This document shows positions 1,172 through 47,576 of a DNA stretch of 64,000 bases, one piece after another. The notes under the pieces were generated by a model that saw only the letters and a program-made list of their open reading frames with translations, was not told the origin of the DNA and did not search any database. The DNA is from Streptomyces sp. NBC_01241 (GTDB taxonomy: Bacteria; Actinomycetota; Actinomycetes; Streptomycetales; Streptomycetaceae), in contig NZ_CP108494.1 of NCBI RefSeq assembly GCF_041435435.1, forward strand, positions 1,612,001 to 1,676,000, written 5' to 3'. The stretch's first letter is position 1. Every line of letters starts with the position of its first letter. The translations under genes and the position numbers were made by a program.

Positions 1172-1717
1172 TCAGCGACGCGGGTCGAAGGTGGCGTCGA
1201 TGTGCTCGGCCACCGCGACGACCAGCAGACGCGTACCGGGCACCGCGGCCCGCCAGCGGTGGCGCACGCCACCGGACAGGAACAGCGTGTCGCCCTGCTC
1301 CAGCCGGTACGCCTGCCCCTCGGCCTCCACCTCCGCCGCGCCCTGCACCACGTACATCACCTCGTCGTTGCGGTGCTGGAACTCGCGCCCGAGGTCGAGC
1401 TCGCCGGTGAACTCCAGGGCGCTGAGCTGATGGCGTCCGCGCACCACCCTGCGTACCCCGTCGCCCTCGCCCGCCCGTACGACATCGACGGCGCGCGCCG
1501 AGTCCGCGGCGGCGCGCAACCGCGCCGTGCTGGTCTCCAGCGCTTCGGCGACCCGGTCCAGGGAGCGGGCGCTGGGCCGGGCCCGCTCGTTCTCGATCTG
1601 GCTGAGGAACGGCACGGACAGGCCGCTACGGGTGGCGACCGCGGCCAGTGTGAGCCCCAGGGATCTGCGCCGTCGGCGGACCGCGGCGCCTACGCGGAGT
1701 GCTTCCTTGTCGTCCAT
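1172..1717 (-). CDS. XRE-family regulator with C-terminal cupin domain
   Basis: This 181-residue regulator has an N-terminal helix-turn-helix (about residues 8-65, containing LTLAAVATRSGLSVPFLSQIE) and a C-terminal cupin_2 barrel (about 105-175, with HRNDEVMYVVQG and an LEQGDTLFLSGG turn). Proteins of this layout bind a small ligand or metal in the cupin and control nearby metabolic or transport genes. The ATG at 1715-1717 is the natural start, because the family begins a few residues before the HTH. The metal-receptor-like gene follows after 15 bases on the same strand and is the best candidate target or partner. The ligand is unknown. Confidence 0.75.
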   Translation of the reverse strand: MDDKEALRVGAAVRRRRRSLGLTLAAVATRSGLSVPFLSQIENERARPSARSLDRVAEALETSTARLRAAADSARAVDVVRAGEGDGVRRVVRGRHQLSALEFTGELDLGREFQHRNDEVMYVVQGAAEVEAEGQAYRLEQGDTLFLSGGVRHRWRAAVPGTRLLVVAVAEHIDATFDPRR

Positions 1718-1880: not shown

Positions 1881-4517
1881 CTACTGCGGGGCCATCATGT
1901 CCGCGATGCCCGGATTCTTCTCCATCCAGGCCTTCACGGCCTCTTCCTCATGTCCCGCACCGCGCTTCTGGATCTGGTTCTCCAGGCCGGCGAGCTGGTC
2001 CTCGCTCAGCTTGAAGTTCTTGAACCACTTCGTCAGCTGCGGGTAGTTCTTCGGGAAGTCCTTGCTGGCGATGGTATGCAGCCGGTCGCCGTCGCCGAAG
2101 GCCTTCTCGGGGTCCTTCAGCCTGGTCATGCTGAACTCGTTGTACGCCCAGTGCGGCGTCCAGAGCAGCACCGCGATGGGCTCCTTCTTGGCGTACGCGC
2201 GCTTCAGCTCGGACAGCATGCCCGGCGTCGAGGAGTCGACGACCTTGTACTCCTTGTCCAGGCCGTACGTCGGCAGCACGTTCTTCTTGAGGTTCTCCAT
2301 CGTGGCGGTGCCCGGCTCGATGCCGACGATCCGGCCCTTGAACTGCGACCCCTTGCCATTGAGATCGGCGAGGGTCTTGACGTCCTTCACGTATGAGGGC
2401 ACCGCGACCTCGATGGACGTGGGGCCGTACCACGAACCGATGTCGGTCAGCTGGGAGCCGTACTTGTCCCAGTAGTTCTTCTGGGTGTACGGCAGCCAGC
2501 CGTCGAACTGCACGTCGATCTGGCCGCGCGACATCGCGGCGTACATCGGACCGACCTCGAACTGCTTGAGGTTGATCTTGTAGCCGCGCTCCTCCAGGAC
2601 CGCCTTCCACAGGTACGTGGCGGCGATGTCCTCCTCCCAGGGGAACCAGGCCATCTCGACGGCGCGGTCGCGCTCGTCCTTGCCGTTCGCACCCTTGGGC
2701 GCGGCGGCCTTGGCGACGGGGGTCCACTTGTCGGCGACGCCCGGGTTGGCCTTCAGCCAGGTACGGACGGCCTCCTGCTCCTTGCCGGTGCCCGACTTCT
2801 GGATCTGCGCCTCAAGACTGGTGAGCTGGCCCTCGCTCATCTTGAAGTTCTTGAGCCAGCTGCCGGCCTCGGGATTGTCCGCGGAGAAGCCCTTACGGGC
2901 CAGAGTGTGGATGCCGTCGCCCTTGCCCCAGAGGTTCTTGGGGTCCTTGAGCTTGGTGAGCTCGAACTGGTTGTACGCCCAGTGCGGCGACCAGAGCGGG
3001 ACGACGATCGGTTCCTTCTTGGCGTACGCGCGCTTCAGCTCGGCCAGCATCGACGGAGTGGAGCCGTCGACGACCTTGTACTCCTTGTCCAGGCCGTAGC
3101 CCGGCAGGATCTTGTCCTTGAGCAGGCCCATTTCACCGGCGCTCGGCTCGATGCCGACGATCCGGCCCTTGAACTGCGACGCCTTGCCCTTCAGGTCGTC
3201 CAGCGACTGGACGTCCTTCAGGTACGAGGGGACGGCCAGCTCCAGCGAGGTGGAACCGTACCAGGAGCCCATGTCCTCCAGGCGGTCCTGGTACTTCTTC
3301 CAGTAGCTGGCGTGGGTGACGGGGAGCCAGGAGTCGGTCTCGAAGTCGATCTGGCCGTTGGCCATACCGGTGTAGAGCGCACCGGCCTCGTACTGCTTGA
3401 CGTCGACCTGGTAACCGCGCCGCTCCAGCATCTCCTTCCAGAGGAAGGTGGAGGCGATGCCCTCGTCCCACGGGATGTAACCCATGCTGATCTTCTTGCC
3501 CGCGCCGACGTTCGAACCGTCGGCGGTGCCGGCGGACTTGCCCGAGCCGGACGAGCCGAAGATTCCCATGGCACCCGCGACGAGCGCGAGGACGACGATG
3601 CCGGAGACGGCGACGACGGGCTGCGGGCGGTAGTTCCAGATCTTCAGTCCGCCGGCCATCGACTGCGCCTTCGCCAGCGCGCGGCGGGCGAGCGGGGAGA
3701 CCTCGCGGCCGAGCGCGCCGGTCATCCGGTCCAGGTACATCGCCACGATGACGATGGAGATGCCCGCCTCGAAGCCGAGGCCGACGTCGACGTTGCCGAT
3801 GGCGCGGTAGACGGCGCCACCGAGGCCGCCGCCGCCGACCATGCCGGCGATGACCACCATGGACAGGCCCAGCATGATGACCTGGTTGATGCCTGCCATG
3901 ATCGTGGGCAGGGCGAGCGGCAGCTGGACCCGCAGCAGGGTGTTGCGCCGGGTGGTGCCGAACGCTTCGGCCGCCTCGACGAGTTCGCCGTCGACCTGGC
4001 GGATGCCGAGCTCGGTCATCCGGACGCCCGGAGGCAGCGAGAAGATGATGGTGGCGATGATGCCGGGCACCACGCCGACGCCGAAGAAGATCACGCCGGG
4101 GATCAGGTAGACCATGGCGGGCATGGTCTGCATGAAGTCCAGGACCGGCCGGGTCACCGCGCTGACGGTCTTCGAACGGGACGCCCAGATGCCCAGCGGC
4201 ACGGACAGCACCAGCGCGATGATGGTGGCGACGAGCACCAGGGTGACGGTGTCCATCGCTTCGTCCCACAGCTCGACGGAGTCGATGAGGGCGAAGCCCA
4301 CGAAGGCGAGCACACCCGCGAGAAGACCGCGCAGCCACCAGGCGATGACGGCGACGATGCCCGCGAAGAGCAGCGGTGCGGGGGCGGAGAGCACGGCGGC
4401 TATGCCGTCGAACATGCCGCTGACGATCGAGCTGATCGCGTCGAACAGCCAGGAGAGGTGGGTCTGCAGCCAATCGACCGCGGAGTCGACCCAGTCACCG
4501 AGAGGGAGCCTAAACAC
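1881..4517 (-). CDS. glycine betaine/proline ABC transporter: permease fused to two substrate-binding domains
   Basis: This 878-residue protein joins three modules. Residues about 1-290 form a ProW/OpuAB-like permease with several membrane helices and the EAA loop (EAAEAFGTTRRNTLLRVQLP, near residue 185). A further membrane helix lies near 300-322. Two tandem OpuAC-type binding domains follow, at about 339-595 and 620-878, both outside the membrane. Each keeps the aromatic motifs used by betaine-binding proteins: PWDEG or PWEED, WYG[SP]TS, and [SP/TP]HWAYN. The domains are similar but not identical (for example LPVTHASYW against LPYTQKNYW). Single-domain OpuA fusions are known; tandem receptor domains are less common. 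The start GTG overlaps the ATPase gene by 8 bases, so the two genes are translationally coupled. The role is import of osmoprotectant such as betaine. Confidence 0.85.
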   Translation of the reverse strand: MFRLPLGDWVDSAVDWLQTHLSWLFDAISSIVSGMFDGIAAVLSAPAPLLFAGIVAVIAWWLRGLLAGVLAFVGFALIDSVELWDEAMDTVTLVLVATIIALVLSVPLGIWASRSKTVSAVTRPVLDFMQTMPAMVYLIPGVIFFGVGVVPGIIATIIFSLPPGVRMTELGIRQVDGELVEAAEAFGTTRRNTLLRVQLPLALPTIMAGINQVIMLGLSMVVIAGMVGGGGLGGAVYRAIGNVDVGLGFEAGISIVIVAMYLDRMTGALGREVSPLARRALAKAQSMAGGLKIWNYRPQPVVAVSGIVVLALVAGAMGIFGSSGSGKSAGTADGSNVGAGKKISMGYIPWDEGIASTFLWKEMLERRGYQVDVKQYEAGALYTGMANGQIDFETDSWLPVTHASYWKKYQDRLEDMGSWYGSTSLELAVPSYLKDVQSLDDLKGKASQFKGRIVGIEPSAGEMGLLKDKILPGYGLDKEYKVVDGSTPSMLAELKRAYAKKEPIVVPLWSPHWAYNQFELTKLKDPKNLWGKGDGIHTLARKGFSADNPEAGSWLKNFKMSEGQLTSLEAQIQKSGTGKEQEAVRTWLKANPGVADKWTPVAKAAAPKGANGKDERDRAVEMAWFPWEEDIAATYLWKAVLEERGYKINLKQFEVGPMYAAMSRGQIDVQFDGWLPYTQKNYWDKYGSQLTDIGSWYGPTSIEVAVPSYVKDVKTLADLNGKGSQFKGRIVGIEPGTATMENLKKNVLPTYGLDKEYKVVDSSTPGMLSELKRAYAKKEPIAVLLWTPHWAYNEFSMTRLKDPEKAFGDGDRLHTIASKDFPKNYPQLTKWFKNFKLSEDQLAGLENQIQKRGAGHEEEAVKAWMEKNPGIADMMAPQ

Positions 4518-5649
4518 TGGCCACCTTCTTCGTGTCGACCGTGCCGGGCCTGACGTCCTGCGGGATCTCGGCGGGGGTCATCGGCTCGCCGAGGACGGCG
4601 AGCAGCCGGGCCCGCGGTACGACGCCGACGAGCTTGCCCGTGGTGTCGGTCACGGCGACCGCCACGCCGCTCTGCGAGCACGGCGTGAAGAGGTCGATGA
4701 TCGGCGTGGACTCGGTGACGGTGGCCGGGGCGGCCGCCAGGACGTCGGCGGGGGTACGCAGTTCCTTGCCGTCGTCCGTGGTGGTGCCCATGACCGTGTG
4801 CGGCTCGGCCATGATCGCGCCCGCGGTCAGCACCCGGGAGCGGTCGACGTCCTGGGTGAAGGAGGCGACGTAGTCGTTGGCCGGGGTGACGAGGATGTCC
4901 TCGGCGGTGCCGAGCTGGACGATCTTCCCGTCGCGCATCACGGCGATGCGGTCGCCGAGGCGCATGGCCTCGTTGAGGTCGTGGGTGATGAAGACGATCG
5001 TCTTCTTCAGGCGCTTCTGCAGTTCGAGCAGCTGGTCCTGCATGTCGCGGCGGATCAGCGGGTCGAGCGCGCTGAAGGACTCGTCCATCAGCAGCAGGTC
5101 GGCGTCGGTGGCCAGGGCGCGGGCCAGGCCGACGCGCTGCTGCATACCGCCGGACAGCTCGTCGGGCCAGGACTTCTCCCAGCCGGCGAGACCGGTCATC
5201 TCCAGCGCCTCGGCGGCGCGCTTCTCGCGCTCGGCGCGCGGCACACCCTGCACTTCGAGGCCGTATCCGGCGTTCTCCAGCACGCTGCGGTGGGGGAAGA
5301 GCGCAAAGTGCTGGAACACCATGCTGATCTTCGAGGACCGGACGTGGCGCAGTTCGGCGGGGCTCAGAGCGGTCAGATCCTGGCCGTCGAACAGGACGCG
5401 TCCGGCTGTGGGCTCCAGAAGTCCGTTGAGCATCCGCAGCAACGTGGACTTTCCGGACCCGGACAGACCCATCACGACGAAGATCTGTCCCGGTTCGACG
5501 GTGAACGAGGCGTCGATCACCGCTGCGGTCGTTCCGTCGGCGCGCAGCGCGTCGCGGTCGGCGCCGCTTTCGAGCTTCTGCACGGCTTGATCGGGTCGTC
5601 TGCCAAACACCTTGTACAAATGTTCGGCTTGCAGCCTTGACACATACAC
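4510..5649 (-). CDS. glycine betaine/proline ABC transporter ATPase with CBS domains
   Basis: This 379-residue ATPase of the ProV/OpuAA type energises the fused permease-receptor encoded next in the operon. The Walker A is GLSGSGKST (about residue 59), the signature is LSGGMQQRVGLARAL, and the Walker B ends LLLMDESFSALDP. Residues about 270-365 form a CBS pair, which in this family senses ionic strength or nucleotides such as c-di-AMP. The GTG at 5647-5649 gives the usual start (MYVSRLQAEHLYKVFGR). The stop overlaps the permease start by 8 bases. An attenuator-like leader lies directly upstream (see 5666-5762), so regulation probably acts on transcript elongation as well as on ATPase activity. 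Confidence 0.9.
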   Translation of the reverse strand: MYVSRLQAEHLYKVFGRRPDQAVQKLESGADRDALRADGTTAAVIDASFTVEPGQIFVVMGLSGSGKSTLLRMLNGLLEPTAGRVLFDGQDLTALSPAELRHVRSSKISMVFQHFALFPHRSVLENAGYGLEVQGVPRAEREKRAAEALEMTGLAGWEKSWPDELSGGMQQRVGLARALATDADLLLMDESFSALDPLIRRDMQDQLLELQKRLKKTIVFITHDLNEAMRLGDRIAVMRDGKIVQLGTAEDILVTPANDYVASFTQDVDRSRVLTAGAIMAEPHTVMGTTTDDGKELRTPADVLAAAPATVTESTPIIDLFTPCSQSGVAVAVTDTTGKLVGVVPRARLLAVLGEPMTPAEIPQDVRPGTVDTKKVASV

Positions 5650-5665
5650 CTCGCGGGTTGAACCG

Positions 5666-5698
5666 AAAAACGGTCTGCCACCCCCTCCGGCAGACCGT
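5666..5698 (-). terminator. U-tailed intrinsic terminator in the leader of the betaine operon
   Basis: On the minus strand a perfect 10-bp stem (5698-5689 with 5679-5670, ACGGTCTGCC/GGCAGACCGT) with a 9-base G-rich loop is followed by a run of T (5670-5666). It ends only 16 bases before the GTG start of the ATPase gene and after no coding sequence, so it looks like an attenuator rather than the end of another gene. A U-tract is unusual for this genome; most other hairpins in the window lack one. Confidence 0.7.
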
Positions 5699-5762
5699 GG
5701 AGCGACGCGGATTCGGCCCGCATGGCACGTGCGGTAGTTGAAATTGCTACGTGCTCCGCTCC
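5699..5762 (-). ncRNA. candidate structured leader RNA (three-way junction) before the betaine transporter
   Basis: Read on the minus strand, these 64 bases fold into a compact three-way junction. P1 pairs GGAGCG (5762-5757) with CGCTCC (5704-5699). P2 pairs GCACGT (5754-5749) with ACGTGC (5730-5725). P3 pairs GCGG (5721-5718) with CCGC (5710-5707) around the loop GCCGAAT. The junction strands are only 2, 3 and 2 bases. The terminator stem starts at the very next base, and its loop (GGAGGGGGT) can pair with the CTCC of the P1 3' strand, so alternative folds are possible. This is the layout of a riboswitch or attenuator. I do not recognise the class, and the ligand is unknown. Confidence 0.45.
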
Positions 5763-5779
5763 GGCTGCGCGCCTGCCCT

Positions 5780-5817
5780 CACTTACACGAGCCAAACACA
5801 AGAGTGACCCAGCTCAC
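5780..5817 (-). promoter_or_regulatory. possible promoter with a CRP-like palindrome for the betaine operon
   Basis: GTGA-N6-TCAC (5804-5817) is a perfect inverted repeat resembling a CRP-type site. On the minus strand a weak -10-like TAAGTG lies at 5785-5780, and the palindrome covers the -35 position. Transcription starting near 5773 would begin about ten bases before the structured leader. Motif positions are read directly; the promoter assignment is inferred. Confidence 0.35.
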
Positions 5818-46800: not shown

Positions 46801-47375
46801 TCCAGGGCGCGGCGGGCGCCGACGACGGAGGCCTTGGTCTGCAGCAGGTCCTGGGTGGTCTCGACCAGGAGGGCGTCGGCACCGCCGGCGATCATGCCCT
46901 CGGCGTTCTGCTGGTAGGCGTCGCGGAGCTTGGTGTACGGGGCGTGGCCCAGCGTCGGCAGCTTCGTGCCCGGGCCCATGGAGCCGAGCACCCAGCGCTG
47001 CTGCCCGGTGGAGGCGGTGAATTCGTCGGCGACCTCGCGGGCGATGCGCGCGCCGGACTCGGAGAGCTCGAAGACCCGCTCGGCGATGTCGTACTCGCCC
47101 AGGGCGGCCAGGTTGGCGCCGAAGGTGTTCGTCTCGACACAGTCCACGCCGACGGCGAAGTACTCCTCGTGCACGGAGCGCACGATGTCGGGGCGCGTGA
47201 CGTTCAGGATCTCGTTGCAGCCTTCGAGGTTCTGGAAGTCCTCGAGGGTCGGGTCCTGTGCCTGGAGCATGGTGCCCATGGCACCGTCGGCCACCACCAC
47301 CCGGGTGGCGAGTGCCTCACGGAGGGCTTCGGCTCGGTTCCGGCTGTCGGCGGAAGGGGTCGGCGACGAGGCCAT
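43863..47375 (-). CDS. metH: cobalamin-dependent methionine synthase MetH
   Basis: This 1170-residue multidomain enzyme moves the methyl group of methyl-tetrahydrofolate to homocysteine through cobalamin. A homocysteine domain with zinc cysteines comes first (GLNCATGPAEM, GGCCGTTPEHL; about residues 10-310). Next are a pterin-binding domain (IGERTNANGSKKF, about 345-610), a B12 domain (about 640-880) with GDVHDIGKNLV, where His747 is the expected cobalt ligand, and a reactivation domain that binds SAM (about 890-1170). AGGGAG lies 7 bases before the ATG at 47375; the frame upstream is unsupported. It is divergent from gylR. I see no B12 riboswitch before it. Confidence 0.96.
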   Translation of the reverse strand: MASSPTPSADSRNRAEALREALATRVVVADGAMGTMLQAQDPTLEDFQNLEGCNEILNVTRPDIVRSVHEEYFAVGVDCVETNTFGANLAALGEYDIAERVFELSESGARIAREVADEFTASTGQQRWVLGSMGPGTKLPTLGHAPYTKLRDAYQQNAEGMIAGGADALLVETTQDLLQTKASVVGARRALEATGANLPVICSVTVETTGTMLLGSEIGAALTALEPLGIDLIGLNCATGPAEMSEHLRYLARHSRIPLSCMPNAGLPVLGKDGAHYPLSPAELADAQETFVREYGLALVGGCCGTTPEHLRQVVERVRGVAVTPRVPHPEPGAASLYQTVPFRQDTSYLAIGERTNANGSKKFREAMLEARWDDCVEMARDQIREGAHMLDLCVDYVGRDGVADMEELAGRFATASTLPIVLDSTELPVLRAGLEKLGGRAVLNSINYEDGDGPESRFAKVTALAAEHGAALIALTIDEEGQARTVEHKVAIAERLIADLTGNWGIQESDILIDTLTFTICTGQEESRGDGVATIGAIRELKKRHPDVQTTLGLSNISFGLNPAARVVLNSVFLDECVKAGLDSAIVHASKILPIARLEEEQVEVALDLIYDRRSEGYDPLQKLMELFEGVSTKSMKAGKAEELLALPLDERLQRRIIDGEKNGLETDLDEALRTRPALDIVNDTLLEGMKVVGELFGSGQMQLPFVLQSAEVMKTAVAYLEPHMEKSDAEGKGTIVLATVRGDVHDIGKNLVDIILSNNGYNVVNLGIKQPVSAILEAAEEHRADVIGMSGLLVKSTVIMKENLEELNQRKLAADFPVILGGAALTRAYVEQDLHEIYEGEVRYARDAFEGLRLMDALIAVKRGVPGAVLPELKQRRVPKRDTAVLEIDEPQEGVRSDVAVDNPVPEPPFWGTRVVKGIQLKEYASWLDEGALFKGQWGLKQARAGDGPTYEELVETEGRPHLRGWLDKLHTENLLEAAVVYGYFPCVSKGDDLILLHEDGSERTRFTFPRQRRGRRLCLADFFRPEESGETDVIGLQVVTVGSKIGGETAKLFEANAYRDYLELHGLSVQLAEALAEYWHARVRSELGFGGEDPADVEDMFALKYRGARFSLGYGACPDLEDRAKIAELLQPERIGVQLSEEFQLHPEQSTDAIVIHHPEAKYFNAR

Positions 47376-47576
47376 GGATGTACTCCCTGGGATGCGACGG
47401 CTGTCGGCTTTGCGGCTTCGGCGGAAGGCGCACCACGCCAGCGTAGCCGGGCGGCGCCCGGGGCCGTCACTCCGTCCCACGGAACGGACGGCATGCTGTG
47501 CGGGGCGGATGTCCGGATCGCAGTGGTGCCGCGGTTTTCCTGCGCGCGCACGCAAGGGTCGGCATCGACCGATAGT

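Follow-up and report, generated by a model that had tools for sequence, protein, structure and literature searches.

A conserved three-way-junction leader RNA ahead of a betaine importer operon in Streptomycetaceae

The betaine importer operon of Streptomyces sp. NBC_01241 is preceded by a folded leader RNA that is real and evolutionarily conserved, namely a three-way junction (helices P1, P2, and P3) followed, with zero linker, by a 10-bp hairpin (T) and a U-rich tail, on the minus strand from 5762 to 5666 of the window (the whole 64,000-nucleotide stretch analyzed). We describe here this fold, its conservation, a conserved promoter motif in front of it, and the operon behind it, and we propose, giving the idea about an even chance of being right, that the leader attenuates, in cis, an osmoprotectant operon induced by stress, with a protein or a ligand as trigger. 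Osmoregulation in Streptomyces is poorly understood (review PMC10117811), and the locus, where a betaine importer is preceded by both a stress-type promoter and a conserved, unlisted leader RNA, makes a defined case open to testing. Sensing of an osmolyte, an ion, or a messenger by the leader would mean that RNA contributes a further layer to the osmotic response; were the leader instead a protein-bound attenuator, its roughly 90 aligned members would still form a new family of regulatory RNAs. The features discussed below, each with the evidence that places it, are these:

5804-5817, minus strand: palindrome GTGAGCTGGGTCAC (GTGA-N6-TCAC), putative Crp-like activator site; conservation in leaders
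5792-5797, minus strand: -35 box GTTTGG, SigB-family type; conserved GTTTG, resembling the SigB-family promoters of PMC8346170
5773-5778, minus strand: -10 box GGGCAG; motif conservation, with GGGTAC or GGGTAG there in other genera
5762-5767, minus strand: predicted transcription start region, about 5766; published -10-to-start distances
5762-5756 / 5705-5699, minus strand: P1, 7 bp, 5' strand GGAGCGG, 3' strand TCGCTCC; covariation, RNAalifold
5754-5749 / 5730-5725, minus strand: P2, 6 bp, 5' strand GCACGT, 3' strand ACGTGC; covariation, mutual information
5747-5746 / 5732-5731, minus strand: inner part of P2, 2 bp beyond a bulged A, 3' strand GC
5733-5745, minus strand: P2 loop, with UUCAAC at 5742-5737 (T/T/C/A/A/C 85-95% conserved)
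5706-5722, minus strand: P3 hairpin, 6 bp (5722-5717 / 5711-5706), pentaloop CCGAA, consensus CNGAH
5670-5698, minus strand: terminator-like hairpin T, loop with near-invariant GGGGG (5685-5681); covariation, terminator scan match
5666-5670, minus strand: T run TTTTT; sequence, terminator scan
5649-5652, minus strand: Shine-Dalgarno GAGG of the ATPase gene; sequence
4510-5643, minus strand: betaine ABC transporter ATPase, likely start GTG 5643; PF00005, weak CBS match
1881-4517, minus strand: betaine permease fused to two OpuAC binding domains; PF00528, OpuAC in two stretches

Fold, conservation, and distribution of the leader

Folding of the leader recovered the same junction and hairpin, and the junction alone reached -27.6 kcal/mol (z = -2.9), a stability equaled in 2 of 200 shuffles. 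P1, P2, and P3 are present on the minus strand as originally predicted, although their extents needed correction: P1 spans 7 bp, P3 spans 6 bp closed by the CCGAA pentaloop, including an extra pair that had been missed, and the junction linkers are tighter (1, 2, and 0 nt) than the 2, 3, and 2 bases first given. The 10-bp terminator that had been placed directly after P1 was found as T at 5698-5670 plus TTTTT, with a P1-T linker of 0 nt in 89 of 90 leaders.

Streptomyces orthologues (n = 80) were collected via the ATPase and their leaders aligned. When 55 leaders were aligned with MAFFT alone, both-sided changes were seen in 15 of 30 pairs (135 cells vs 62±9 in shuffles), and RNAalifold, supplied with no structure and with an alignment not fitted to one, recovered P1, P2, P3, and T alike. 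A covariance model gathered 90 distinct Streptomycetaceae members, and in their alignment, which is fitted to this model and hence biased towards its structure, both-sided changes occurred in 24 of 30 pairs, T included (264 cells vs 92±8 shuffled), with a covariation score of 0.284 vs 0.03-0.07 when partners were slid. Covariation of P1-P3 among relatives had been named beforehand as the check on the original prediction, and here it was borne out. The top nine pairs of a mutual-information scan were all helix pairs, one being the extra closing pair of P3 that RNAalifold also returned; both-sided changes were seen in five model pairs of P3 and in 7 of the 10 pairs of T. P1 is little variable and has modest covariation support in the core set; two diverged relatives (L127, L129) allow it to be read as CUGGGU/ACUCAG. 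The 5' leader thus contains a conserved, covarying, aptamer-like structure, one of the several properties expected of a riboswitch.

The loops UUCAAC (P2), CNGA (P3), and GGGGG (T) are far better conserved than the drifting stems around them. The C, G, and A of the P3 loop are 96-97% conserved, and the five consecutive G of the T loop (5685-5681, minus strand) reach 98-100% across the 90 leaders and are retained in leaders whose junction is reduced or missing (L126, L157, L161, L162). The P2-loop UUCAAC is also seen in leaders without P3. TTCAAC occurs twice on the minus strand, in the P2 loop (5737-5742) and between the T tail and the Shine-Dalgarno sequence (5657-5662); both copies are kept in close relatives, the one at 5657-5662 being variable in others, and the doubling possibly represents a repeated recognition site.

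The model matches once per genome and only in Streptomycetaceae, and every credible match stands before the same betaine ABC ATPase, in sense orientation. No credible match before other genes was found in the leader's own genome, 200 family genomes, about 300 class genomes, or 40 relatives, the multi-genome searches using a stringent pre-filter that weak copies may escape. Among 100 further leaders, several architectures lie downstream of the same promoter, including the full form (P1-P3 and T), a form in many Streptomyces with P1 and the UUCAAC hairpin and without P3 and T, a third with P1-P3 and a hairpin lacking GGGGG, and a fourth in which T is kept and the junction is reduced or lost; some relatives have neither P2 nor P3, and in S. 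griseus and S. atratus both the junction and T are present. This variety indicates that the element evolves fast, which counts against a single indispensable ligand pocket; and since P3 and T are missing in many Streptomyces orthologues and the junction is reduced or lost in a few relatives, betaine transport can do without either one. Some structure is also seen in leaders without the model (mean z about -1.5). In leaders without P3 and T (L139, L141, L183, L185, L210, L212, and similar), a very conserved GGTTG(N6-7)TTCAACTGTT element follows right after the promoter and may be an RNA hairpin or a DNA site.

Promoter region and downstream operon

A promoter motif that the original prediction did not mention spans 5797-5773 on the minus strand. 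Its pattern, GTTTG-N13-15-GGG[CT]A, was present in 143 of 183 leaders (with N14 in 141) vs a shuffled mean of 0.26. As in SigB-family promoters, a GNNT/GTTT -35 box and a GGG-x-A -10 box are separated by a 12-15 nt spacer. Across the genome the exact pattern and its reversed control are equally frequent (4 vs 4), so it is conservation rather than rarity that speaks for this promoter. Mapped SigB-family promoters of S. coelicolor, such as GTTTGC-N14-GGGCAA and GTTTGC-N14-GGGTAG, are alike (here GTTTGG-N13-GGGCAG), although the text on them does not name the betaine operon (PMC8346170). From sequence, we infer that a SigB-family sigma factor drives the leader promoter. In mapped SigB-family promoters, the distance from the -10 box to the start is about 6-11 nt (PMC8346170), and by these distances the RNA should start at about 5766 (5762-5767), at the foot of P1. 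A start downstream of 5699 had been named as evidence that would count against the leader, and the predicted start lies upstream of that position. An antiterminator helix P0 (GGCAGGC with GUCUGCC) was considered and rejected, as it showed no covariation and GGGCAG is the -10 box, hence outside the RNA.

Upstream of the promoter lies a palindrome (5817-5804), likewise absent from the original prediction. GTGA-N6-TCAC with at most one mismatch was found within 45 nt in 133 of 141 leaders (1.7 expected from shuffles), and in 131 of the 141 it stands 5-6 nt upstream of GTTTG (6 nt in 120, 5 nt in 11). We liken this palindrome to Crp sites, an assumption under which its regulator would be a Crp-like activator.

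Downstream of the leader, the ATPase gene and the permease/OpuAC gene encode, judging by their domains (PF00005; PF00528 with OpuAC), a betaine-type importer, in agreement with the original prediction. The two tandem OpuAC domains on the membrane domain imply several binding sites per transporter. The GAGG at 5652-5649 overlaps the GTG at 5649, so that the ATPase more likely starts at GTG 5643, and the T tail ends 22 nt upstream of this start codon, instead of the 16 bases proposed for GTG 5649. In S. coelicolor, salt raises the expression of SCO1620-SCO1621, which encode an OpuA-type glycine/betaine transporter, at a salt level at which known SigB target genes were not activated (PMC13011467); we take these genes, matched by description alone, as the counterpart of the operon. 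Immediately after the permease gene, and in the same orientation, comes an XRE/cupin regulator gene (window 1172-1717, minus), whose product is possibly a local regulator.

Terminator-like hairpin and candidate mechanisms

T was found independently by a terminator scan (0.3 expected by chance) and is the sole terminator-like site detected between 5600 and 5900 of the window. U-rich terminators of Streptomyces are defined by a GC-rich hairpin and a tail with 3 or more U per 8 nt (PMC8269248). T fits this definition, and all 58 relatives with canonical arms reach that U count, taken over the 8 nt from the hairpin end, while a contiguous T run of at least 4 follows the hairpin in only 32 of the 58. 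T is predicted to terminate part of the transcripts. The idea that the T loop might sense K+ through a two-tetrad G-quadruplex was dropped: at least 8 bp of T would survive its formation, and conservation does not extend to the outer G tracts.

Mutually exclusive folds between the T loop and the 3' strand of P1, also part of the original prediction, proved feasible, the P1 3' strand pairing with GGGGUGGC of the T loop over 7-8 bp, longer than first stated. In a transcript ending inside T, this alternative lies within 1.1 kcal/mol of the P1 fold in the window and equals it in L045. However, the pairing is no better than that of control loops: shuffled loops pair with the P1 3' strand equally well on average, random GC-rich loops do so at nearly the same cost (median 1.8 vs 1.6), and loops ending in GGGGGU alone beat random ones (0.6 vs 1.8), those ending in GGGGGA fitting less well. 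No covariation for the alternative fold appeared in the mutual-information scan, and as the P1 3' strand and T loop are both near-invariant, covariation cannot test their pairing. Two other candidates were rejected, namely a kissing contact between the P3 loop (GAA) and the P2 loop (UUC), which offers only 2-3 pairs and no mutual-information signal, and a leader peptide, for which no conserved ORF was seen, closed uORFs of at least 5 codons being limited to 45 of 141 leaders and varying in position.

In the attenuator model, SigB-family RNA polymerase, probably aided by a Crp-like activator at GTGA-N6-TCAC, would initiate a few bases from P1; the nascent RNA would form the three-way junction, and part of the transcripts would then end at T and its U-rich tail, ahead of the ATPase start codon. 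Termination at T would be regulated, with read-through most likely set not by a leader peptide but by a protein or small ligand recognizing the junction and the conserved loops UUCAAC, CNGAH, and the GGGGG of T. We count in favor of this model the covariation in P1-P3 and T, the U-rich tail, the abutment of P1 and T, the loop conservation, the near-fixed spacing of promoter and palindrome, the lack of a conserved leader peptide, and the salt response of SCO1620-SCO1621; against it count the T-run frequency, the orthologues without P3 and T, and the lack of a covarying alternative fold. The last point would suit a static 5' structure, in which junction and stacked hairpin shield the mRNA against nucleases or hold the ribosome site accessible, without any switching. 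We hold this reading to be unlikely: P1 begins a few bases from the predicted start and stacks directly on T, other structures replace the junction in relatives, and leaders without the model retain some structure, but three loop sequences are conserved beyond what stability needs, and T carries a U-rich tail.

The layout had been originally likened to a riboswitch or attenuator, and a structured, covarying leader with a terminator-like hairpin is indeed present, although the riboswitch claim itself was not established. A small molecule or ion might stabilize P1, the unliganded P1 3' strand pairing instead with GGGGGUGG of T and blocking termination (or the reverse), a switch for which we see a low probability. 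The energies of the two folds are near-equal, and P1 and GGGGG are both near-invariant, as expected of dual-use strands, but shuffled and random loops perform nearly as well, GGGGGA-ending loops fit less well, a single gene is preceded by the motif, with no regulon, GGGGG is kept without P1-P3 in some relatives, and no Rfam family matches. Lower still is the probability we assign to a new Streptomycetaceae riboswitch class, whose compact junction would sense an osmotic signal (osmolyte, ion, or nucleotide messenger) and hand the P1 3' strand to the GGGGG loop to decide read-through into the betaine importer. A stress-type promoter, a terminator, and exposed conserved loops would also befit a terminated RNA of about 97 nt acting in trans as a stress-induced small RNA through UUCAAC or GGGGG, yet all credible copies stand before the same operon in sense orientation, making this very improbable. 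Lastly, the conserved bases could reflect sites in the DNA (within the P2 region, an operator around TTGCG-N10-TTGCG), with the folds being incidental, as UUCAACURUUGC is common to leaders without P3 and T; this is strongly disfavoured, since the stems flanking the P2 loop covary (-7.6 kcal/mol with own stems vs -5.4 when flanks were swapped), as do P3 and T.

Relation to known leader RNAs

The leader and ten relatives scored below every gathering cut-off of Rfam (4227 models, including ydaO, RF00379), consistent with the original impression of no match to a familiar class, and this leader was not found described in the open-access article texts searched. The resemblance of the P3 loop to ydaO was superficial only, the window leader giving no ydaO match even at E = 10. 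The ydaO/yuaA c-di-AMP riboswitch (RF00379) is also a cis-acting, terminator-type, osmosis-linked leader in Streptomyces (PMC10117811), but it precedes cell-wall hydrolases there and has another fold, whereas the leader described here precedes a betaine importer. The opuB motif likewise is a structured leader before compatible-solute ABC transporter genes; it is found mostly in Enterobacteriaceae, with five helices, the Shine-Dalgarno sequence inside P1, and a ligand said to be shikimate-related (PMC11109978), in contrast to a three-way junction with a terminator-like hairpin and the Shine-Dalgarno sequence outside. The dauA, livJ, and asfR motifs are Streptomyces-limited orphan leader candidates, some with a three-stem junction, that precede other genes and, in dauA and livJ, include the Shine-Dalgarno sequence (PMC11109978); by these published descriptions, the present leader is set apart by its outlying Shine-Dalgarno sequence and the terminator-like hairpin that follows. 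The nearest published analogues are these Streptomyces orphan motifs and the enterobacterial opuB motif, none having this fold as described. The sole Rfam match in the window is a Streptomyces-metH RNA (RF03076) at 47373-47491 on the minus strand (111 bits).
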